The position numbers and the translations under genes are program-made. Shown in pieces: positions 6,954 to 51,403 of a stretch of 58,232 nucleotides of DNA (the stretch's first letter is position 1; every line of letters begins with the position of its first letter). The notes under the pieces are model-generated. The model saw nothing but the letters and a program-made list of their open reading frames with translations, was not told where the DNA came from and made no database searches. Location: NCBI GenBank assembly GCA_903881475.1, contig CAIRTK010000023.1, positions 1 to 58,232 on the forward strand. Direction: 5' to 3'. This DNA comes from an uncultured Opitutia bacterium (GTDB lineage: Bacteria; Verrucomicrobiota; Verrucomicrobiia; Opitutales; Opitutaceae).

Positions 6954-9365
6954 TCAGCGCTGGATGGCCGCCTCGGGGGAGGTGACGACGAGGTCGAGGG
7001 CGCAGCGGACGCGCTCGAGGTCGCTGGTGTTGGGCGGAAGCTGGGCGACGGTGTTGACGGCGATCGCCCGGGCGGGCTCCGACATGGCGCCGGTGCAGAA
7101 CACCAGGTCGAGATAGTCGATGAGCTGGGCCGGCGTCCGGGCAAGCGCCAGCAGCGGGTCGAGCTTCAGCACGAGGACATTCTCCTTGGGTTGCGCCGGG
7201 GTATGGATGAAGTTCCGGAGCTGGTTCGGGATCGAGATGGCGGTCGTGTCGGTGAAGATCTGGTACTCGGGTGCATGGAGGCCGGCCGCGGCCAGCGGGC
7301 CGGGCAGGACGTAATCCGGCTCGAAAAAATTGAAGACCGTCGGGGAGCGCAGCGCCGCCTGGCCGAGCGAGCCCTCGGGATTGGGCAGGTAATAGCGCCC
7401 GTTGGCGGCAGTCGCATTAAAGGCCCTCAGCAACGCGGTGGCCTGCAGTAGCGGCTCCTTCATCTTGCCATAGCCGATGTTGTTCAGCACGTCGGGCGAA
7501 CGGGCCTCATAGTCGAGCAGGATGGCGCGCACCACGGCGCCGAGGTCACCCCGCTCGCCGTGCCCGTTGTGGGCAAAGACCTGGGCCACGCGGTAAACAT
7601 AGCCGGGGCTGGGATTGCTGGTGACGAGCCGCTGGATCAGCTGGCGGCAGATGAACGGTCCGGTGTTGGGATGGCGGAAGAATGCATCCAGCGTCAGGCG
7701 GAGATCGTTGGCGCCGCCGAGCTTGGCTGGGATCCTGATGCCGCCGACGATGGTCTTGGGGCCGTCGTCGTGCTGCTCGGGGTAAAGCATCATGGGCTGG
7801 AAATAATTCTGCCGGGCGCCGAAGAAATTGGGCTTGGGCTCGGGCGAGTAGAAGCCCCAGCCGGTGAAAATCTTGGCCGTTTCCACGACGGTGCCCTGAT
7901 CGTACGTGGCGATGGGCAGGCCGTCGCGGCCGAGGCGGTAGGTGCCGTCGGGCTGGAGCTCGTTCAGGCCGATGGTGAACAGCTGCATGACCTCGCGGGC
8001 ATAGTTCTCGTCGGCGCTCGTACCGCGCTTTTCGTCGGCCTTGGGGCTTTTCAGGTGGCTGAGGTACGCGCCCATGACCGGGCTCAGGGTCACGTCCTGC
8101 AGGAGCTGGCGGAAATTGCCGAAGGCGTCGCGCGCCAGCATGTCGTAGTAGGCCGCGGCGGCCTCGGGATTGTTGGCGAGGGCGTCGTTCACGTCGGAGA
8201 CGACGAAGATCTCGCTGAGCGCGAAGGCGACGCGCTGACGCAGCTGGTCGGGGGCGGTGAGGGCGGTCTGCCACCAGGCGACCTGGCGGTTGGCGTTGTT
8301 GATGCGCGGGCGCGGATTGTTCGGCGGGAAGGCGCGATAGTCGGCGCGCATCGCCTCCAGTTGCGAGCTGGGTGGGATGGCCATCTGCTCATTGATCCAA
8401 TTGTTGAAGTTCTGGGGCTTTGGCGGCGGCTCGTTGGGGCGGGGCGTCGGGTGGACGAATTCGTCGATCTCGGACTTCGTCGGCCCGAAGGTCGCCTGGG
8501 TAAGGAAGCGGGCCACATCGCGGACCGTCGGCGGCGTGTTGGGCAGCTTGGGCGGGTTGGCGGGCGGCTGGAACTTCACCGAGCCGGTGGCGTGGATGAA
8601 ATTGCCGCGCAGTTCGCCGGTCGGATGGTTCTTGGTGTCGATCGCGGCATAGACCAGCCCGCGATCCAGCGCGGCGGCGAGGGCTTCCGAGGTGAATTGT
8701 CCCGTCGGCTGCATCGTCCAGTCGAAGCTGACACGCTGATCCGCATGGAAATTCATCAGGTACGCGCCCTCATGGCCCGGGTCGCCGAGCTTGAGATGGG
8801 CGACGACGAAGGGGGAAGACAGGTTGGCGTGGGAGACCGTCACGCGGGCCCGGGAATGGTCGGGGGCCAGCAAGAGCACGGCGGTACCATAGGCTGTGGA
8901 TTCGGGGGCCTCGGCGGTCGGCCGGAGGGCGGCGACGAACAGCTCGGGCGGAGCGTCGGTGATCGTGACGATCGCGCGGTCGGACGGGCCCACCTGGTAG
9001 CTGCGGTCGGACCGCAACGAGCAGAACACCGTGCGCAGCGGGTCCTTTTCGAAGTTGCCGATGGCCGTGATCGCAGCGGTGGCGGTGGCGGCTCCGGCCG
9101 GGAAGGTGAGCGTGGTGGGGATTTCGTGGTAATCCACGCCTGGTTTCGCAGTGCCGCCCAGGTCGAAACTGACCGTGAGCGCGGTGGAGAGATCGCCGGA
9201 GCGGGTGAAGGTGACGACACCCGGTTTCGCCGCGGTCTCGTCGGTGGTGGCGACCGAGGCGGTCAGCGTGACTACCGGTTTGACCGGATCGGCGGCGTGG
9301 GCAGAGGGCAGGCCAAGCCAGAGCAAACCAAGGCAGGGCAGGGCGAGGCGGAAGAGGGAGCGCAT
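6954..9365 (-). CDS. secreted DUF1800 protein with Calx-beta and CHRD domains
   Basis: From the ATG at 9365 the protein has 803 aa and a clear signal peptide (MRSLFRLALPCLGLLWLGLPSAHA). A Calx-beta-like region spans ~28-135 (TFTRSGDLSTALTVSFDLGG, GVDYHEIPTTLTFPAG). A CHRD domain spans ~140-260 (AEAPESTAYGTAVLLL, HPTGELRGNF). A DUF1800 domain runs from ~280 to the end (ARFLTQATFGPTKSEIDEF, NYAREVMQLFTIGLNELQPDG, FICRQLIQRLVTSNPSPGYV). It is the first gene of the DUF1800-DUF1501 pair. A role at the cell surface is inferred from the Ca-binding-type and CHRD modules; no activity is known. The upstream extension to 9590 enters the tRNA region and is rejected. Confidence 0.9.
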   Translation of the reverse strand: MRSLFRLALPCLGLLWLGLPSAHAADPVKPVVTLTASVATTDETAAKPGVVTFTRSGDLSTALTVSFDLGGTAKPGVDYHEIPTTLTFPAGAATATAAITAIGNFEKDPLRTVFCSLRSDRSYQVGPSDRAIVTITDAPPELFVAALRPTAEAPESTAYGTAVLLLAPDHSRARVTVSHANLSSPFVVAHLKLGDPGHEGAYLMNFHADQRVSFDWTMQPTGQFTSEALAAALDRGLVYAAIDTKNHPTGELRGNFIHATGSVKFQPPANPPKLPNTPPTVRDVARFLTQATFGPTKSEIDEFVHPTPRPNEPPPKPQNFNNWINEQMAIPPSSQLEAMRADYRAFPPNNPRPRINNANRQVAWWQTALTAPDQLRQRVAFALSEIFVVSDVNDALANNPEAAAAYYDMLARDAFGNFRQLLQDVTLSPVMGAYLSHLKSPKADEKRGTSADENYAREVMQLFTIGLNELQPDGTYRLGRDGLPIATYDQGTVVETAKIFTGWGFYSPEPKPNFFGARQNYFQPMMLYPEQHDDGPKTIVGGIRIPAKLGGANDLRLTLDAFFRHPNTGPFICRQLIQRLVTSNPSPGYVYRVAQVFAHNGHGERGDLGAVVRAILLDYEARSPDVLNNIGYGKMKEPLLQATALLRAFNATAANGRYYLPNPEGSLGQAALRSPTVFNFFEPDYVLPGPLAAAGLHAPEYQIFTDTTAISIPNQLRNFIHTPAQPKENVLVLKLDPLLALARTPAQLIDYLDLVFCTGAMSEPARAIAVNTVAQLPPNTSDLERVRCALDLVVTSPEAAIQR

Positions 9366-9531
9366 AATCGGACGGCCCGGAATGGGCGGCAGGAACCGAG
9401 ACGAGGCCGCGGGGGGAAGGTTACTGGATTCGCCGGCCGCGGGTGAATGTGCGGATCGGTTGCCGGACGGGCCGCCGCCTTGATTCGCGGCTTGCCACGG
9501 ATTTTTTCTTCGCGTGGCATGACAGCTTATC

Positions 9532-9618
9532 GCCCGGGTGGCGGAATTGGCAGACGCTGCAGACTCAAAATCTGCCGACAGCAATGTCATGTGGGTTCGA
9601 CCCCCACCCCGGGCACCA
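9532..9618 (+). tRNA. tRNA-Leu, anticodon CAA
   Basis: The 87-nt cloverleaf has acceptor GCCCGGG/CCCGGGC, a GCAGA/TCTGC anticodon stem with loop CTCAAAA (anticodon CAA), a long variable arm typical of leucine tRNA, a T arm with GGTTCGACC, and an encoded CCA end. Its 3' end is the integration site of the mini element that follows. The element regenerates an intact gene. Confidence 0.96.
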
Positions 9619-10777
9619 GTTCACCATTTGGACTGCTTTGGACAACATGCTCCAAAGTGGGACAATTACCCTCAGCTCCAGCGGCTTCCGTAATGAAACT
9701 TTCCGTACCGGATTTTTCGCGACGGACAGGTTTGGACAACGAAACCCCATCTTGGCCGGAAAAACGTGGAGAACTGCGTGGAGAAGCTATGGCCGACAAT
9801 TTGTCGATTCCTTCCTGCAATGGCAGCTTGGTCGTATCGGTATAGGTCCAATCAGTCAGGCGAAGACTCTTGTGCCGGGCCAGCTGCTTTATCACCCGCG
9901 AATGCGCATCGGTGTTTTGCAGGAAAGTTATGAATGTGCGGCGGAAAGTGTGTATGCCCGCTGGCCGGCCTTCGTTGTCCTTGAGCGGAATACCGGCTTT
10001 ATCCATGTCACGGTGTAACGTGTCCACATCCGGAACGCCGCGTGGGAAAACCAGCATATTTGCTTTCCAGTAAGGTGGGCGAAATTTACGCATCTCCTCT
10101 AGGATCACGGAGAGAAGCGGCAATCGGTCAGCTCGACGCGCTTTGGTCGCCTCTGCCCGGAGAAATAAGCCCGGGGCATCATCCAAATGCACATCACCCC
10201 AAACAAGCCGCTTGGATTCAATGCGTCTCAGTCCGGTAAACGCCATGAATCGATAGAACAAGGCCCGCTTGGGCTTCGCTACGGCACACAGCTTGTCCAA
10301 TTCATCTTTTGTGAATGCGCGTGGCCCGTCTGGATACCTTGGTGTCACTTCTACGGTTTCAATCCGCTTCAGTGGGTTCGGAATTTCGTAACAACGGTCT
10401 ACCCAATTGAAAAATGCCCGAGCCGCCTCAAAGAAATTGTTGAGCGTACGCGCCTGATACTTGGTCTGGGCATTCCGCCAATCAATGAAACCACGGGGCG
10501 TGACATCTGCCATACAGGACCACCGGCAATCCTTCGCTAGCTTTAGAAACCGGCTCTTGACGACGCGCATATGGTCATGAGTGCGGCCATTCTTCCTCAC
10601 GTCCTCCAAGTATTCCTCCAGAAGCTCAGTGAATGGCCGCCGTTTGGTTTTCCGTGTAAGTGCCGAAGGAATGAGGTCGACGGACTCACGCTGTGCGTCT
10701 TCATAAGACTCATTGAAGAGCTTCGCCGCCACTTCTTTGACGGTCGTATGTAATGGCCGCTCACCGGACGTGCTCAT
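9587..10777 (-). CDS. tyrosine recombinase/integrase of a tRNA-Leu mini element
   Basis: This 396-aa tyrosine recombinase has a SAM-like N-terminal region (~48-130) and the full catalytic set: R184 in TGLRRIES, K212 in ATKARR, H276 and R279 in HTFRRTF, H302 in LARHKS, and nucleophile Y312 in DWTYTDT. Its ATG at 10777 is preceded by AAAGGAGG with 9-nt spacing. It points at the tRNA and its last codons (VPGVGVEPT) are read from the antisense of the tRNA-Leu 3' end, so the stop lies inside the tRNA gene. It probably catalyses integration and excision at the flanking 16-bp repeats. It carries no recognised cargo. Confidence 0.93.
   Translation of the reverse strand: MSTSGERPLHTTVKEVAAKLFNESYEDAQRESVDLIPSALTRKTKRRPFTELLEEYLEDVRKNGRTHDHMRVVKSRFLKLAKDCRWSCMADVTPRGFIDWRNAQTKYQARTLNNFFEAARAFFNWVDRCYEIPNPLKRIETVEVTPRYPDGPRAFTKDELDKLCAVAKPKRALFYRFMAFTGLRRIESKRLVWGDVHLDDAPGLFLRAEATKARRADRLPLLSVILEEMRKFRPPYWKANMLVFPRGVPDVDTLHRDMDKAGIPLKDNEGRPAGIHTFRRTFITFLQNTDAHSRVIKQLARHKSLRLTDWTYTDTTKLPLQEGIDKLSAIASPRSSPRFSGQDGVSLSKPVRREKSGTESFITEAAGAEGNCPTLEHVVQSSPNGELVPGVGVEPT
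9607..9622. other. attL core of the mini element
   Basis: The 16-bp sequence CCCCGGGCACCAGTTC spans the 3' acceptor end and CCA of tRNA-Leu. An identical copy occurs at 10988-11003 in the same orientation. The integrase gene lies between them, 1381 bp apart. Confidence 0.85.
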
Positions 10778-10872
10778 GTGGCATCGCCTCCTTTTGCGGC
10801 TTCAACAAGCGCGAGAATCGCAGCGCGAACCGACTGAGGGAGCTTTGCCCAAGCGAGGACAACGCTGGCCAC
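10774..10872 (-). CDS. tiny ORF overlapping the integrase start (ATGA)
   Basis: A minus-strand reading frame ends ...VEAAKGGDAT with its TGA overlapping the integrase ATG (ATGA), which suggests translational coupling. The nearest start is a GTG at 10872, giving 32 aa with the run VLAWAKLPQSVRAAILALVE. The frame stays open upstream through attR (reading GVEPNRQIEEGIED), so it could be the remnant of a longer gene whose start was lost. Function is unknown; an excisionase-like or integrase-accessory role is only a guess. Confidence 0.4.
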   Translation of the reverse strand: MASVVLAWAKLPQSVRAAILALVEAAKGGDAT

Positions 10873-10987
10873 GTCTTCCCCAGCTTGACCGGGACTACGT
10901 GGAGAACTACGTGGAAGGGCTACCTCGCAGTCTTTCGCAAACTGCCCGTCTTCAATTCCTTCCTCAATCTGCCTGTTGGGTTCGACC

Positions 10988-11003
10988 CCCCGGGCACCAG
11001 TTC
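10988..11003. other. attR core of the mini element
   Basis: This is an exact second copy of CCCCGGGCACCAGTTC. It is preceded by GGGTTCGACCCC at 10978-10989, which mimics the T-arm of the tRNA but lacks the rest of the gene. This is the expected footprint of a tRNA-targeting element and marks its right boundary, 29 bp before folC. Confidence 0.85.
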
Positions 11004-11031
11004 CTAACCGGCATCCCCGCCGCTTCCAACG

Positions 11032-12342
11032 ATGCCGCCTTCCTCATCTCCCATTTCACTTCGGCCCGCGGAGGAATATCTGTGCGAGCTGAAGAAATCA
11101 GGGGTGCGGCTTGGCCTTGATCGCATGCTGGAGCTGGCGGAGGCGCTGGGTCATCCCGAGCGGCGCGTGCCGTGCGTGCATGTGGCCGGGACCAATGGCA
11201 AGGGCTCGGTCAGCGTTATGCTCGAGGCGATCTTCCGGGCGGCCGGCTGGCGGACGGGGCTCTACACGTCGCCGCATCTGGTGCGGCTCGGCGAGCGGAT
11301 CCAGGTGAACCGGCGGGCCCTGGAAACGGCGGCACTCGACGCCTATGTGGGCGAGCTTGCCGATGTGGTCAGGGCGATGGTCGTGGCCCGCGGGCCGGAG
11401 GTTCGGCCGAGTTATTTCGAATTCATGACCGGGCTGGCCTTCGCGCACTTTGCCCGGGAGCGCTGCGACATCGCCATCATCGAGACGGGCCTCGGCGGGC
11501 GGATCGACGCCACCAACATCGTGGTGCCGGAGGTGAGCGTCATCACGTCCATCGGCTTCGACCACTGCGATTTCCTGGGCGACACCCTCGAAAAAATCGC
11601 GGCCGAGAAATCCGGGATCATCAAGCCCGGGCGGCCGGTGGTGCTCGGCCGGTTGCCGGCCGTAGCGAAACGGACCATCCGAGCCATCGCGGCGGAGAGG
11701 GAAGCCCCGGTCTTGTCGGTCACTGAGGAGTTTGGCACCGCGGCAGAGGATTGTCCGTCCACGAATCTGGTTGGTGAGCACCAGCGGTGGAATGCAGCGA
11801 CGGCCGCGCTGGTGGCGCGGACGATGGCCGCGCGCTGGCGATTGGACGGGGCCGGGATGGCGCGAGCGTTGAGGGAAGTCGACTGGCCGGGGCGGTGGCA
11901 GGAACTGAGCGTCGCGGGCCGGCGCGTGATCGTGGACGCGGCGCATAACGCGGAAGGCGCCGTTGCACTGGAGAGCAATTTGGTCCGGCTGCGGAACGAG
12001 ACGGGCCGGGCGCCGATCATCATCGTGGGCGTGCTCGGCGCCTCGCGGGCCGGGCCGCTGCTGGCGGTGATTGCGCGGCAGGCGCGGGAGATTCACCTGG
12101 TCGTGCCGCAGCAGGCAAGGGCCTGCACGCATGACGAGCTGGCGGCGTTGCTGCCCGCCGGTTTTTCCGGCGAGGTGCATCGTTCGACGGTCGACGCGCT
12201 GTTTCCCGGGCCGGACAATTGCGGGCCGGGCGCGCCGGGCGATGTGGTGGTGGTTGCAGGGTCGCTTTATCTGGCCGGGGAAGTCCTGGTGCGACTAGAG
12301 CCGGCCCGGGGACCGCTGGAGCCTCACCTGCAGGATTTTTGA
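11032..12342 (+). CDS. folC: bifunctional folylpolyglutamate/dihydrofolate synthase
   Basis: FolC adds glutamate to dihydropteroate and to folates in an ATP-dependent ligase reaction, in the cytoplasm. The 436-aa length is normal. The Mur-ligase-type P-loop VAGTNGKGSVSVML lies near residue 51. YTSPHLVRLGERIQVN, ETGLGGRIDATN, SIGFDHCDFLGDTLEKIAAEKSGI and the C-terminal IVDAAHNAEGAVAL are all family signatures. The start ATG at 11032 lies just after the mini element's right end, so the element inserted between the tRNA and the folC promoter or leader. Confidence 0.95.
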   Translation: MPPSSSPISLRPAEEYLCELKKSGVRLGLDRMLELAEALGHPERRVPCVHVAGTNGKGSVSVMLEAIFRAAGWRTGLYTSPHLVRLGERIQVNRRALETAALDAYVGELADVVRAMVVARGPEVRPSYFEFMTGLAFAHFARERCDIAIIETGLGGRIDATNIVVPEVSVITSIGFDHCDFLGDTLEKIAAEKSGIIKPGRPVVLGRLPAVAKRTIRAIAAEREAPVLSVTEEFGTAAEDCPSTNLVGEHQRWNAATAALVARTMAARWRLDGAGMARALREVDWPGRWQELSVAGRRVIVDAAHNAEGAVALESNLVRLRNETGRAPIIIVGVLGASRAGPLLAVIARQAREIHLVVPQQARACTHDELAALLPAGFSGEVHRSTVDALFPGPDNCGPGAPGDVVVVAGSLYLAGEVLVRLEPARGPLEPHLQDF

Positions 12343-12484
12343 AGGCGATGGCCCTGCGGAAGGCAGGCCCATCCAACAACGCGGGCCAAGCGACATCAAT
12401 CAGTGTCCGGAGCCGGCTTAGGCTTTTGGGGAGAGCGACAATCTGATTGCGCTTTCGCGACGGGCCCGGCTGGTTCGGGCGGTC

Positions 12485-13213
12485 GTGAACCTTAAGCCCA
12501 ATCAGCCGCACAAGGTGGCAATTGTGACTGCAGCCAGCCGGGGAATTGGCGCCAGTTGCGCGCGGGTGCTGCATGAGCGCGGCTACCGGTTGGCCGTGAT
12601 GTCACGGACGCCCGCGATCCACGGCATCGCGACCGAACTCGGGGCAATGGCCGTGGTCGGCTCTGTGTCGGAAGCGGCCGACTTGGACCGCCTCGTCGGG
12701 CTGACGATGGAGCGATACGGGCGGATCGACGCGGTGGTGAACAATTCGGGCCATCCGGCCGGCGGCGAGATCGTGACGATTCCCGATGCCCAGTGGCTGG
12801 AGGTGTTCGAGATGTATTTGCTGAGCGTCGTGCGGATGAGCCGCCTGATCGCGCCGGTCATGACCGCGCAGGGGGGCGGAGCGATCGTGAATATTTCCGG
12901 CAACAGCGCGCTTGAGCCGGATGTACGGTTTCCGGTGGCCGACACGATCCGGGCGTCGCTCGCGGCCTATACGAAGTTGTTCGCCCGAACCTATGCGGAG
13001 AAAAATATCCGCATGAACTGCGTGGCGCCGAGCGTGGTATTCGATCACGATCCGGGCAGCGTCCGGGAGGACCTGAAGAATGAGATCCCCATGCGGCGGC
13101 CGGCGCACTATCGCGAGGTCGCGGAGGTGGTGGCGTTCTTGCTGTCCGGCGAGGCTTCGTACGTCACCGGTGAAACGGTCCGGGTCGACGGCGGGGTCTC
13201 ACGCGGCCTGTGA
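12485..13213 (+). CDS. short-chain dehydrogenase-like protein with altered active site
   Basis: This 242-aa Rossmann protein starts at GTG 12485. The cofactor motif is VTAASRGIGASCARVL and the NNAG equivalent is NNSGH. The end shows the usual SDR tail (SYVTGETVRVDGG). The catalytic region reads IVNISGNSA then PVADTIRASLAAYTK. Aligning with FabG, Ser is Gly, Tyr is Ala and Lys of YxxxK is Arg, so the normal Ser-Tyr-Lys triad is not present. It may be a non-reducing SDR or use other residues. It lies between folC and lysA on the same strand, with no clear pathway link. Confidence 0.85.
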   Translation: MNLKPNQPHKVAIVTAASRGIGASCARVLHERGYRLAVMSRTPAIHGIATELGAMAVVGSVSEAADLDRLVGLTMERYGRIDAVVNNSGHPAGGEIVTIPDAQWLEVFEMYLLSVVRMSRLIAPVMTAQGGGAIVNISGNSALEPDVRFPVADTIRASLAAYTKLFARTYAEKNIRMNCVAPSVVFDHDPGSVREDLKNEIPMRRPAHYREVAEVVAFLLSGEASYVTGETVRVDGGVSRGL

Positions 13214-46946: not shown

Positions 46947-48104
46947 ATGAGCACTTTGAGCAACACCCCGGCCTCCCTGGAGGAACTGCTGGCGCAGATG
47001 GTGTCGTTCGACACGGTCAATCCGCATTTTGGCGGACGCACGGGGGGTGAAGAGGCTCTCGCACTGCACTTGGAGAAACTTGCCCGCGGCTGGGGTCTGG
47101 CGACCCGTCGGGCAGCGGTCGAAGGCAATGTCGTGAGCAACCTGATCGTGACCTGCGAGCCGGTGCCGGGCGGGGAGTGGCTGCTGTTCGAGAGCCACCT
47201 CGACACGGTGAGCACCGCGGGCATGACCGTGGCGCCGCTGGGTGGAAAGATCGAGGGCGGCCGGATGTACGGACGCGGGGCCTGCGACACGAAGGGTTCG
47301 GGGGCGGCGATGCTGTGGGCGCTGCGCGAGTATGCGCGCGATGCGCGGCGGCCGCGGAATGCGGGGCTGATCTTTGCGGTGGACGAGGAGGCGCGCATGA
47401 CGGGCGCGCAGGCGTTTGCCCGCAAGGAGCTGAAGGATTTTCTGCCGCGGCTGCGCGGGGTGATCGTCGGCGAGCCGACGCTGCTGCGGCCGATCGTGGC
47501 GCACAACGGCGTGATCCGCTGGAAGACGACCACGCGGGGACGCGCGGCGCATTCGTCGGATCCCAGCAAGGGCGTGTCGGCGATCTCGGCGATGCTGCGC
47601 GTGATGGAGACGCTGGAGTCGAATTACTTGCCGTCAGTGACACGGAGCCACCCGATGACGGGCCGCGCGGCGGCGAGCGTGAACGTGATCCGCGGCGGGA
47701 CGGCGGTGAACATCATCCCGGCGGCGTGCGAGATCGAGTGCGACCGTCGGACGGTGCCGGGCGAAACGGCGGAGCAGGTGCTGCGCGAGCGGGACGAGGC
47801 GCTGGCCGGTCACGTGGTCGAGCATGACTCGCTTTATGTCGTGCCGGCGCTGGACGAGGCGCTGGGCCGGGAGTTTCACCGCTGGATCAGCCTGGTGCTG
47901 GAACGCCACGGGTGCGACGCCACGCCACGGGGTGCGCCGTACGTGACGGATGCGAGCCATTACGCCGCGGCGGGCGCGCCGACGATCGTGCTGGGGCCGG
48001 GGGACCTGGCCCAGGCGCACACGAAGGACGAATGGGTAGCGCTGGAGCAGTTGCAGAGGGCGTCGGCGGTTTACTTGGATTTGCTGCGGGTGCAGGTCGG
48101 TTAG
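46947..48104 (+). CDS. M20 family metallopeptidase/deacetylase
   Basis: This 385-aa zinc enzyme resembles ArgE/DapE/carboxypeptidase G2. The metal set is visible: H84 and D86 in FESHLDTVST, D114 in GRGACDTKGSG, and E147-E148 in AVDEEARMTG. The dimerisation domain contains HNGVIRWKTTTRGRAAHSSDP, and VNVIRGGTAVNIIPAACEIECDRRTVP follows. It hydrolyses an N-acyl amino acid or small peptide; the specificity cannot be read. It follows the DapA-like gene in the same direction and could deacylate an intermediate of that pathway or be independent. Confidence 0.88.
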   Translation: MSTLSNTPASLEELLAQMVSFDTVNPHFGGRTGGEEALALHLEKLARGWGLATRRAAVEGNVVSNLIVTCEPVPGGEWLLFESHLDTVSTAGMTVAPLGGKIEGGRMYGRGACDTKGSGAAMLWALREYARDARRPRNAGLIFAVDEEARMTGAQAFARKELKDFLPRLRGVIVGEPTLLRPIVAHNGVIRWKTTTRGRAAHSSDPSKGVSAISAMLRVMETLESNYLPSVTRSHPMTGRAAASVNVIRGGTAVNIIPAACEIECDRRTVPGETAEQVLRERDEALAGHVVEHDSLYVVPALDEALGREFHRWISLVLERHGCDATPRGAPYVTDASHYAAAGAPTIVLGPGDLAQAHTKDEWVALEQLQRASAVYLDLLRVQVG

Positions 48105-48133
48105 AGGACGTCAGAGGATGAGGGATGGGCTTT

Positions 48134-48165
48134 AGGCCGAAAACGTCCGGCCTTTCGCACTTTTG
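48134..48165 (+). terminator. weak terminator after the M20 gene
   Basis: The stem AGGCCG (48134-48139) / CGGCCT (48148-48153) is followed by a T-rich stretch TTTCGCACTTTT (48153-48164). The spacing and interrupted T-run make this a weak candidate. Confidence 0.4.
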
Positions 48166-48260
48166 GCGGGCCAGGTTTTCCCGCAACATTCCTCGGAGAG
48201 CGTGTCACCGGCGATACAAGAAAACGGAGCACTGGACATCAGTACTGTTGTGCGAAGTAG

Positions 48261-48506
48261 GGCCCGGCGCCGAGTAACAGCCGTGTGCGCGGAGGGTACG
48301 ACGCTTACTTTGGTACCTTTGCGATGGATGAAGCCGCAGGGACCGTGACGACCACGCTGGTGGGCGCGCTCTTGCTGGAAAATGTCGGCCAGGCTTTCAC
48401 CTGCACGATCAGCGTAGCCGGCGATGAACTTACCCTGCGCCGCGCAACGGCCTCGACGGACGGAGAACCGATCACCCGGACCCTGCGCTGGAAGCGGGTC
48501 GGGTGA
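48261..48506 (+). pseudogene. N-terminally truncated lipocalin-like protein
   Basis: The open frame from 48261 to 48506 encodes GYDAYFGTFAMDEAAGTVTTTLVGALL and GDELTLRRATASTDGEPITRTLRWKR. This resembles the C-terminal half of bacterial lipocalin-like (Lipocalin_5 type) proteins, which normally have ~130-150 residues. A stop codon lies just upstream at 48258, and no N-terminal strands are recognisable before it. A GTG at 48285 could start a 73-aa product. It is most likely a gene remnant. Confidence 0.55.
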
Positions 48507-48658
48507 TCGGGCAATCCGCGTGAGGGCCGGACCGGCGCCGGCCCCCACGCGCTGCCCGGACAGGACCGGCCTTGGGGATTCAGCGGGAATCCCTGGCCCA
48601 GCGGCCTGCAATCGGTTCTTTCCTGTTGGTCATTTGGCGGTAACCTGACGCCTGTCGA

Positions 48659-51403
48659 ATGAGCAAACCGCTCTGTTGGTTTCCGTTTTTACTCCTCTGC
48701 GTCCTGACCGCCCCGGCCGCGGCGCCGGTGCTGCGGATCGGTGTCGAGCGCAACTCCGCTCCGCTTTCCTTCCGTGATGCCAAGGATCAGCCGACCGGGT
48801 TCTCGGCGGAGCTGATCCAGGAAATGACCAAGCACGGGGATTTCCAAGCGAAGGTCGTCTCGAACTATTGGGCAACCATCCTGCGCGACTTCCAGGCCGG
48901 CAAGCTTGATGCCCTGGCGAATGTGAACATCACGGACGAGCGCCGGGCGACGATGGATTTCTCCATCTCCCACGCCTATCTGCACGGCATCGTGTACCTG
49001 CGGCGGGACCATGCGCCGATCGTCAAGACAGCCGATTTTATCGGCCTGAAACTCGCTGTTCTCGAGGGCAGCGTGACCTTCTATACGGCGCAGGAACACC
49101 AGGGGTGGGGCGCGACGATCCGGGGGTTTGATTCGGTACCGGCGATGCTGGTGGCCGTGGAAAAAGGGGAATGCGACGCGGCCCTCCTGATGCTGCCGCT
49201 GGCGAAGGAGGTGGACGATCACGGGCTGCGCAGCCAGTTCCTGGATGACATCATCTATCAGTTTTATTTCGCCGTCCACAAGGGCGACACCGAGACCCTG
49301 GCGCGCCTGAACGAGGCGCTGGCCACCGTTCGGCACAACGGTCAGTTCGACCGGCTCTGGAGCAAATGGATCGGTCCGATCGAGCCGCATCCAATCCGGC
49401 TTGCGGACCTGCGCCCGTACTTGCTCCCGATGATGCTGGCACTGATCGCCGTGGCGGCCCTCTTTGTGTGGCAGCGGCGGGTACTGGCGAGGGTTTCCGC
49501 CCAGGCCCGGGCGCTGCAGGAAAGCGAGGCCCGCTTCCGCTCCACCTTCGACAACGCCGGCACCGGCATGGCGCTGGTCAGCACCGCCGGGCAACTGCTG
49601 CAGACGAACGCCATTTTCCAGAAGATGATGGGTTACTCCGAAGCCGAGTGCGCCGAGCTGACGTTCATGGACATCACGCATCCGGAGGACCTGGAGAAGG
49701 ACGTGATGCTTTACCGGGAGGTGCTGGCCGGGAAGCGGGATACCTATCAGGTGGAAAAGCGGTACATCCAAAAGAACGGCGGGATCATCTGGGGGCATCT
49801 CACGGTTTCCCCCGTCAAGGGGCCGGACGGTAAGATGCAATATGCGGTCGGCATGGTGGAGGACATCACCGAGCACAAGCGGATCGAGGATGCGCTGCAC
49901 CTGACGCAGGAGCGGCTGCAGGCGATCCTCGACCACAGCCCGGCCATGATCTACGTGAAGAACCTGGAGGGGCGCTACCTTCTGACCAACCGGCTGTTCA
50001 ACGAGAAGTACCAGCACGGCGGCGCGAGCATGATCGGGATGATGATCCGGGACCTGGTGCCGCCGGCGGTGGCGGAGCTGCGCGAGAGCCACGACCGCCT
50101 GGTGGTGGAAAAGGGCGCCCCGATCACGATGGAGGAACGGAGCGAGGAGAACGGGGTGATCAAGACCTACCTCGCCGTGAAGTTTCCCCTCCGCGACGCG
50201 CACGGGAAGATCTATGCGATCGGCGGCGTCGATACCGACATCACGGAATACCAGCTGCTGCAGACCCAGTTTGTGCAGGCCCAGAAGATGGATGCGTTTG
50301 GCCAGCTGGCCGGCGGCATCGCGCATGACTTCAACAACATCCTCGCCGTGTTCATGATCCAGCTGAGCCTGCTGGCGGCCGATACCAGCCTGCCGGCGGC
50401 GACAGTGGAGAAATTGAGGGGCCTGGAGGACATCACGCAGAAGGCCGCGCGGCTGACCCGCCAGCTGTTAATGTTCAGCCGGCGGGAGGCGACCGACATG
50501 CAGCCGATGGACCTCAACCAGGCGCTCATTGATGTTTTCAAGATGCTGGGCCGCATCCTGGGCGAACACATCGATCTGAGAGTCCGCAACCGCGGGCTGC
50601 CGATGTGGATCAATGCCGATGCCGGCATGATCGAGCAGGTGGTCATGAACCTGGCCGTCAATGCGCGCGATGCCATGCCGAACGGCGGCCAGCTGACCGT
50701 GGACACGGAGCTTGCGATATTCGACGCCAGCTCCGCGACCGACAACCGCCGTCCGGGCCGGTTTGTCTGCCTGACCGTGGCCGACACCGGCCACGGAATG
50801 GACGCGACCACGCTGAAGCGGATCTTCGAGCCGTTCTTCACCACCAAGGAGGTGGGCAAGGGCACCGGCCTGGGCTTGGCGACCGTTTATGGCATCGTGA
50901 AGCAGCACGGCGGCTGGGTGGAGGTGGAGAGCGCGGTCGGCAAGGGCAGCGTTTTCCGCGTCTATCTGCCTGCCGTGGAGCGCCCCGTCGGCAGCGCGTC
51001 GGGTTTCGACGTCCCGGAAGCCCGGGGTGGGCGCGAGCGGATCATGATCGTCGAGGACGACGATGCGGTCCGGGAAATCTCCACGATGTGCCTTGAGCAG
51101 GTGGGCTACAACGTCGTGGCGGTGCCGAATGCCATCGAGGGCCTGAAGCAATGGCAGGAGCAGGGGCAGCGGTTTGACATGCTGATCACGGACATGGTGA
51201 TGCCGGGCGGGATGAGCGGCTTGAAACTGGCCACGATGCTGAAGGAGATGAAAAGCGCCCTGAAGGTGATCATCATCAGCGGCTATTCACCGGAAGCCTC
51301 GGACTCGCGGACGCCGTTCACCAAGGTCGGCACGTATTTGTCCAAGCCGATTGACCGCCTCACGCTCCTGAACACCGTGCGGCGCAGTCTCGATGAGCCT
51401 TAA
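48659..51403 (+). CDS. hybrid histidine kinase with periplasmic solute-binding sensor
   Basis: This 914-aa hybrid kinase of the BvgS type has a signal peptide (residues 1-25), an SBP_bac_3 sensor (~25-240; [32 protein letters not shown]) and a transmembrane helix (~256-275). Two PAS/PAC domains lie at ~290-410 and ~415-540. The HisKA domain has H556 in [13 protein letters not shown]. An HATPase domain follows ([43 protein letters not shown]), and a C-terminal receiver has D845 in [11 protein letters not shown] and the Lys in YLSKPI. It likely senses a small ligand in the periplasm. No output regulator is adjacent. Confidence 0.95.

Follow-up and report, generated by a model that had tools for sequence, protein, structure and literature searches.

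Several kinds of small or reduced mobile elements resemble the locus described here in one respect or another. The IMEs of streptococci encode relaxases related to rolling-circle initiators, and many of them are integrated at the 3' end of a gene for a tRNA or a ribosomal protein (PMC5357655). CIMEs and decayed integrative elements are described as att-flanked remnants that are left after gene loss (PMC5704250), and MITEs as deletion derivatives that have kept their ends (PMC11389934). In E. coli, integrase-only islands have been reported in which an integrase is the sole recognised mobility gene and the cargo is defensive (PMC10121019). The sizes given for dusA islands are 4758 bp and up (PMC4482086). 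With regard to the recombinases themselves, a survey of tyrosine recombinases presents the arm-binding domain as essential to the mobility function of those encoded by mobile genetic elements (PMC8138268). In the portion of the literature that was searched, in which subscription journals are thinly represented and bioRxiv preprints absent, no description of the Opitutae element family treated below was found.

The window, i.e., the whole stretch of 58,232 nucleotides that was analysed, is contig C23 of genome G000 (3.2 Mb). The host probably belongs to Opitutae, and there likely to Opitutaceae; the FolC protein beside the element shares 82% identity with that of an uncultured Opitutae MAG (CAIONS010000061.1). 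The window holds a 1381-bp insert between a tRNA-Leu(CAA) gene and a displaced tRNA 3' end. In the following, this insert is compared with relatives from the same bacterial family, from which it emerges as very probably a tRNA-targeting integrative element that has been reduced by an internal deletion.

An integrative element at tRNA-Leu(CAA)

The features of the locus and its immediate surroundings are as follows.

6954..9368, minus strand: left flanking host gene, encoding a DUF1800 protein (Pfam)
9532..9618, plus strand: target tRNA-Leu(CAA), its 3' end part of attL (ARAGORN; Rfam RF00005)
9587..10777, minus strand: tyrosine recombinase ORF of 396 codons, with its stop within the tRNA gene (ORF call, Pfam, alignments)
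9592..9622, plus strand: attL copy of the repeat, the tRNA 3' end plus GTTC (local alignment; exact 16-mer)
9766..9784, plus strand: putative left arm-type site GTGGAGAACTGCGTGGAGA
10751..10766, no strand: deletion junction at which 2962 bp of the G193 element are absent (blastn blocks against G193)
10774..10914, minus strand: conserved small ORF at the attR end, ...GEDVASVVLAWAKLPQSVRAAILALVEAAKGGDAT, its stop overlapping the integrase start
10775..10795, minus strand: presumed integrase start, ATG at 10775-10777 with the likely ribosome-binding site AAAAGGAGG at 10787-10795
10899..10915, plus strand: putative right arm-type site GTGGAGAACTACGTGGA
10977..11003, plus strand: attR, the displaced tRNA 3' end, with a 4-nt gap relative to attL (local alignment)
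11032..12342, plus strand: right flanking host gene folC (NCBIfam TIGR01499, E 3.8e-96)

The original prediction had rested on an identical 16-bp repeat, 1381 bp apart. This repeat is present (9607-9622 and 10988-11003, with no further exact copy in the whole window), and the true repeat proved to be longer: local alignment pairs 31 bp with 27 bp through 27 matched bases and one 4-nt gap. When the downstream 10 kb were shuffled by dinucleotide 300 times, the alignment score of 21 was never reached, the top shuffle scoring 15.5; a chance repeat is thereby ruled out, and the repeat is tRNA-derived. The tRNA gene is restored at one end of the insert and its 3' end is copied at the other. In 500-bp windows, GC content is 53-54% within the element, as compared with 65-71% on either side (7000-9499 and 11000-12499). 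We consider the feature to be a real tRNA-targeting integrative element. The integrase frame crosses attL into the tRNA gene (window 9587-9640). The last integrase codons and the stop thus come from the target tRNA and would change on excision.

A catalytic integrase with a replaced N-terminus

The recombinase matches Pfam Phage_integrase (E 4e-9) as well as PHROG 1, integrase. In an alignment of 12 sequences, the window protein and 11 relatives, R184, K212, H276, R279, H302, and Y312 occupy invariant columns; we take these to be the active-site residues. The prediction of a full-length recombinase with all catalytic residues is accordingly half right. For the other half, the integrase on G193:C44, which is 68% identical and also sits at a tRNA-Leu gene, is instructive. 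Leu9 of the window protein corresponds to Leu32 of the G193 integrase, the 31 residues at the N-terminus of the latter being swapped for 8 unrelated ones, such that the segment before LHTTVKEV reads MYRHLIPPSAKHRTYRGRYRVGDNPKVHEVT in G193 and MSTSGERP in the window. By eye, an N-terminal stretch (e.g., RVFKxKGSRxYRxRYR) ahead of the helix LxTxxKxVA can be recognised in 22 of 23 printed relatives and is missing in the window; L038, the single exception among the relatives, is shortened as well. Position 50 of the integrase family profile aligns to lambda Int residue 74 onward, an alignment that would place the missing stretch in the arm-binding domain. The ORF thus comprises core-binding and catalytic parts and lacks the N-terminal portion of the arm-binding domain. 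An intact, full-length integrase, as the prediction also had it, is ruled out by the comparison with relatives including G193, and the window element does not carry a complete recombinase with its arm-binding domain.

The stop of the small ORF overlaps the integrase start in the sequence ATGA. Counterparts of this ATG and of its presumed ribosome-binding site, namely an ATG and GGAGG, occur where the small ORF of G193 ends; there, the ATG opens a 42-codon frame that is distinct from the rep gene. The small ORFs themselves end in AGAGGAGGCCAGCCATGAGC in G193 and AAAGGAGGCGATGCCACATGAGC in the window. Across relatives, the motif VVxAWxxLPxxxRAAIxALVxAxxGG recurs at the attR end of several elements, and this small ORF lies near attR in larger elements, for example those of G010, G009:C10, G067, G181, and G193; it matches no Pfam family above its cut-off. 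The contents of the element had been given as just an integrase and one tiny ORF, and the latter is now better described as a conserved attR-end ORF of several relatives. As for the putative arm sites, a GTGGAGAACTGCGTGGAGA-like motif lies near the attL end in G008, G193, G190, G159, and G033, and GTGGAGAACTACGTGGA has a counterpart in the right end of G193.

Probable origin by internal deletion

The G193 element measures approximately 4.3 kb, with a degenerate att copy some 4.33 kb from the tRNA-Leu gene. Two blastn blocks, window 9590-10750 and 10767-10915, are 69% and 78% identical to its ends and collinear with them, and the 2962 bp between are absent from the window. This middle region of G193 contains a xis gene (profile match of E 1e-22), a gene for a 335-aa protein with a REP_ORF2-G2P match of E 1e-5, under the curated cut-off (HUH-type replication protein), and a gene for a DKNYY-family protein. 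In the window element, xis had no match up to E 1, and tblastn with four rep sequences returned no match to an HUH-type rep. The window element therefore has the form of a deletion derivative, its ends collinear with a larger element and its middle missing. G193 serves here as a stand-in for the ancestor and is not the ancestor itself, its integrase being just 68% identical. The differences between the two integrases are mostly synonymous (dN 0.195; dS 2.59, near saturation), and triplet arithmetic assigns a higher dN to the window branch than to the branch of G033 or G193.

In the same bacterial family, the related elements usually have an integrase together with a xis-like HTH gene; cargo, a replication or relaxase-like protein of the HUH type, and a small ORF before attR are often present as well. 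From the ends, the repeat, the collinearity with G193, and the missing middle, which are directly readable, we infer that the window element inserted as a larger one. In the proposed course of events, a larger element would have inserted at tRNA-Leu. A deletion would then have fused the end of the small ORF, with its overlapping ATG and ribosome-binding site, to about codon 32 of the integrase, the frame staying open. This would have removed everything but the two att ends, the putative arm sites, and a catalytic integrase that can still be translated. Lacking xis and part of the arm-binding domain, the product should be incapable of self-reliant, regulated excision or integration. The window element is most likely immobile by itself and probably no self-moving minimal element.

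Of the two options that the original prediction had left, cargo loss finds good support in the collinearity with the G193 element and agrees with the graded sizes of the relatives. The other option, an autonomous element, conflicts with the truncated arm-binding domain, the lack of a xis match (E up to 1), and the 4-nt gap in the right att copy. Two observations count against decay: the integrase still has an uninterrupted frame of 396 codons, and most of the changes that separate it from G193 are synonymous. Furthermore, elements of 4537, 6007, and 9502 bp are likewise without xis and rep matches, so a missing match alone is no proof of decay.

Related elements across the family

Integrase matches of E 1e-40 or better were obtained in 51 of 252 genomes of the family, taken as one per species; the matches were picked by E-value, and at least one listed match (G125:C447) is not among the longer stretches analysed. 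These stretches yielded 98 integrase rows, some of which come from overlapping stretches (L148, L175, and L252) or enter a broken gene a second time (L189, L197, and L169). In 68 rows, a tRNA or tmRNA 3' end lies within 700 bp of the C-terminal side of the integrase, and in 32 of these a second copy of that 3' end defines a bounded element of 897-9502 bp, the window element included. The 66 unbounded rows consist of 30 without a tRNA or tmRNA gene within 700 bp and 36 whose stretch contains no att copy. A search of plasmid and phage records gave no relatives at E 1e-5, and a first integrase scan of the genome contigs produced no confirmed match.

Among the 32 bounded elements, 26 have a xis match and 16 an HUH (rep) match. 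Seven sequences went into the xis profile, those of G197 and G178 among them, so that the census matches of these two are circular; Pfam HTH_17 independently finds all three xis proteins of the tRNA-Pro elements described below. HUH calls combined Pfam REP_ORF2-G2P, which exceeded its cut-off in one of four proteins tested, with tblastn using four rep sequences. Neither gene was matched in five elements, of 897 bp (G009:C22), 1381 bp (the window element), 4537, 6007, and 9502 bp. The two smallest of all 32 are the first two of these, and both have N-truncated integrases; in the three larger ones the integrase is not truncated, and these elements may contain genes that the queries missed. The 897-bp, att-flanked element (L106) lies at tRNA-Ser(CGA). 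In another instance, a 1864-bp element in G102 combines a truncated integrase with a rep match and has no xis.

Larger relatives carry further genes. For example, the 7.7-kb element of G010 (L102) contains an MT-A70 methylase and a DndB-like protein, and the 7.3-kb element of G067 (L109) an MvaI/BcnI-type restriction enzyme, both cargoes being defence-like. The integrase of G033, a near relative of that of the window, adjoins an HTH_17 protein and a TrwC relaxase. Within G000 itself, a 2847-bp element at tRNA-Ser(GGA) (L094; C10, approximately 47981-50917) encodes an integrase, a 412-aa HUH-type protein, and an attR-end small ORF, together with a weaker xis match (1e-9). Related integrase genes or fragments also occur in G000 near tRNA-Gly, tRNA-Val, tRNA-Gly, and tRNA-His (C11, C81, C55, and C62; L095-L098), with no detectable att copy at these four loci. 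In G197, several related integrase genes lie a few kb apart in a tandem-array-like arrangement (L252; C1, 3100000-3116000).

Candidate minimal int+xis elements at tRNA-Pro

Three elements at tRNA-Pro, in G188, G197, and G178 (L153, L160, and L182), measure 2023, 2032, and 2033 bp and are bounded by perfect repeats of 28-33 bp. Each contains an integrase with the N-terminal stretch and a xis ORF; there was no rep match in them, nor any recognised replication, transfer, or cargo gene. G188 and G197 share approximately 66% nucleotide identity over the integrase side and have patches in common at the other end. Their insertion site is apparently the same tRNA-Pro(CGG) gene, and this pair may descend from a single insertion; G178 belongs to another genus. 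The search for empty sites of the G188 element covered 21 genomes including G188, and the listed loci of nine others were examined. tRNA-Pro(CGG) is without an integrase in eight of these nine other genomes of the genus (L258-L266, with at most about 1.5 kb a side), G197 being the one that has it. The matches at L258-L266 mostly consist of the tRNA and promoter-side sequence (the tRNA alone for L266), and the far flanks are unmatched. Another search of the family gave 30 loci, in which the same three tRNA-Pro elements and that of G251 reappeared and none was new. These int+xis elements, and not the window element, are the better candidates for a minimal autonomous element. At about 2.03 kb, they raise the question of whether an integrative element can persist with its recombination module alone.

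tRNA-Leu(CAA) sites in related genomes

G008 is the single close relative in the genome set, and it holds a related integrase fragment at the same tRNA. The left block of G008 is 87% identical to the window at the nucleotide level, and its folC 82.7%; the integrase fragment is 75% identical to window 9791-10030. Synonymous divergence is likewise higher in the 77 codons of the catalytic part that could be compared (38.2 differences over 58.3 sites, dS 1.54) than in folC (135.8 over 357.7 sites, dS 0.53). Simple vertical inheritance from an ancestor shared with G008 is thus disfavoured. On the basis of these 77 codons, separate or exchanged insertions at one tRNA gene would appear to fit better than one old insertion.

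The G008 locus is itself interrupted (L092 and L091). Its integrase fragment breaks into a sequence whose last 75 bp are the exact end of the folC contig; judged by eye, this 75-bp end common to two contigs is probably an IS end. The tRNA at the element site ends in CTA rather than CCA, and the gap that precedes folC contains no attR by the four short exact patterns searched for.

No syntenic, unoccupied tRNA-Leu site was found, the one close relative being G008 with its related fragment. In eight other members of the genus, the stretches fetched contain no family integrase beside tRNA-Leu(CAA), with a downstream span of 402 bp in G007 and 1020 bp in G005. The flanks of the window are unmatched at these sites, and the neighbourhood differs. 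In G003 (L115, 6224-6357), a window match of 82% over 134 bp continues beyond the tRNA for about 47 bp that correspond to the left end of the element, with no integrase; this 47-bp stretch looks like a possible relic of a related element. Given the differing neighbourhoods, the short downstream spans, and the left-end match in G003, those tRNA-Leu sites are not clean empty sites.

Alternative explanations

Since attL, attR, and the arm sites are kept, the window element could be read as a MITE-like mini-element that is unable to move alone and is moved instead by an intact, related integrase and Xis acting in trans. Both ends and the putative arm-type sites are present, and the arm-proximal segment 9619-9790 is 84% identical to G008, as against 75% for 9791-10030. 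Six further integrase matches occur in the same genome. This reading is nevertheless improbable: attR has a 4-nt gap, the element is single-copy in this genome, and in the protein search of the 252-genome family no second integrase came nearer than 79% identity. A broader proposal joins it to the tRNA-Pro elements. The family would then have a real minimal int+xis form. The window element would lie one step beyond it, as a derivative of less than 1.5 kb that is ended by att sites and depends on such relatives for mobilisation in trans, and site-specific integrases would possess a MITE-like tier. We put this forward tentatively and regard it as rather unlikely.

A minimal autonomous element consisting of an integrase alone is very improbable. 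The open frame, the catalytic residues, and the att pair agree with it, as does the existence of slightly larger int+xis elements at tRNA-Pro, but the domain truncated here is the one called essential to mobility (PMC8138268), xis has no match, and attR is imperfect. The notion that the integrase gene is vertically inherited or domesticated, and the repeat due to chance, draws on the presence of a related fragment at this tRNA in G008, the closest relative. It is hardly credible in view of a tRNA-derived repeat far beyond chance, an element GC content that differs from the flanks, and a catalytic-part dS relative to G008 that exceeds that of folC and points to separate or exchanged insertions. 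Internal deletion thus remains the preferred explanation, and the feature amounts to commonplace decay that came with a neat fusion. It illustrates how an element can shrink with its ends kept and how a deletion can give a recombinase a new start codon. The surrounding family, above all its int+xis forms, is of greater interest.

Comparison with known systems

Like IMEs, the elements considered here are small, and their larger relatives pair a tyrosine integrase with an HUH-type protein (16 of 32) or, in G033, a TrwC relaxase. The window element differs from IMEs in having no relaxase or RCR-type gene (no rep match), no replication gene, and no cargo. It resembles the integrase-only islands of E. 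coli in that the integrase is the sole mobility gene, and differs from them in being without defence cargo. With recombinases of the lambda Int type, it shares a family profile that aligns from residue 74 and putative arm sites at both ends, whereas its protein is without the first part of the arm-binding domain. Unlike those of MITEs, its ends are att sites for a site-specific recombinase and not transposon ends, and mobilisation in trans is putative. Finally, the window element is, like CIMEs, an att-flanked remnant; a CIME is without integration genes, whereas the window element has kept most of its integrase gene.
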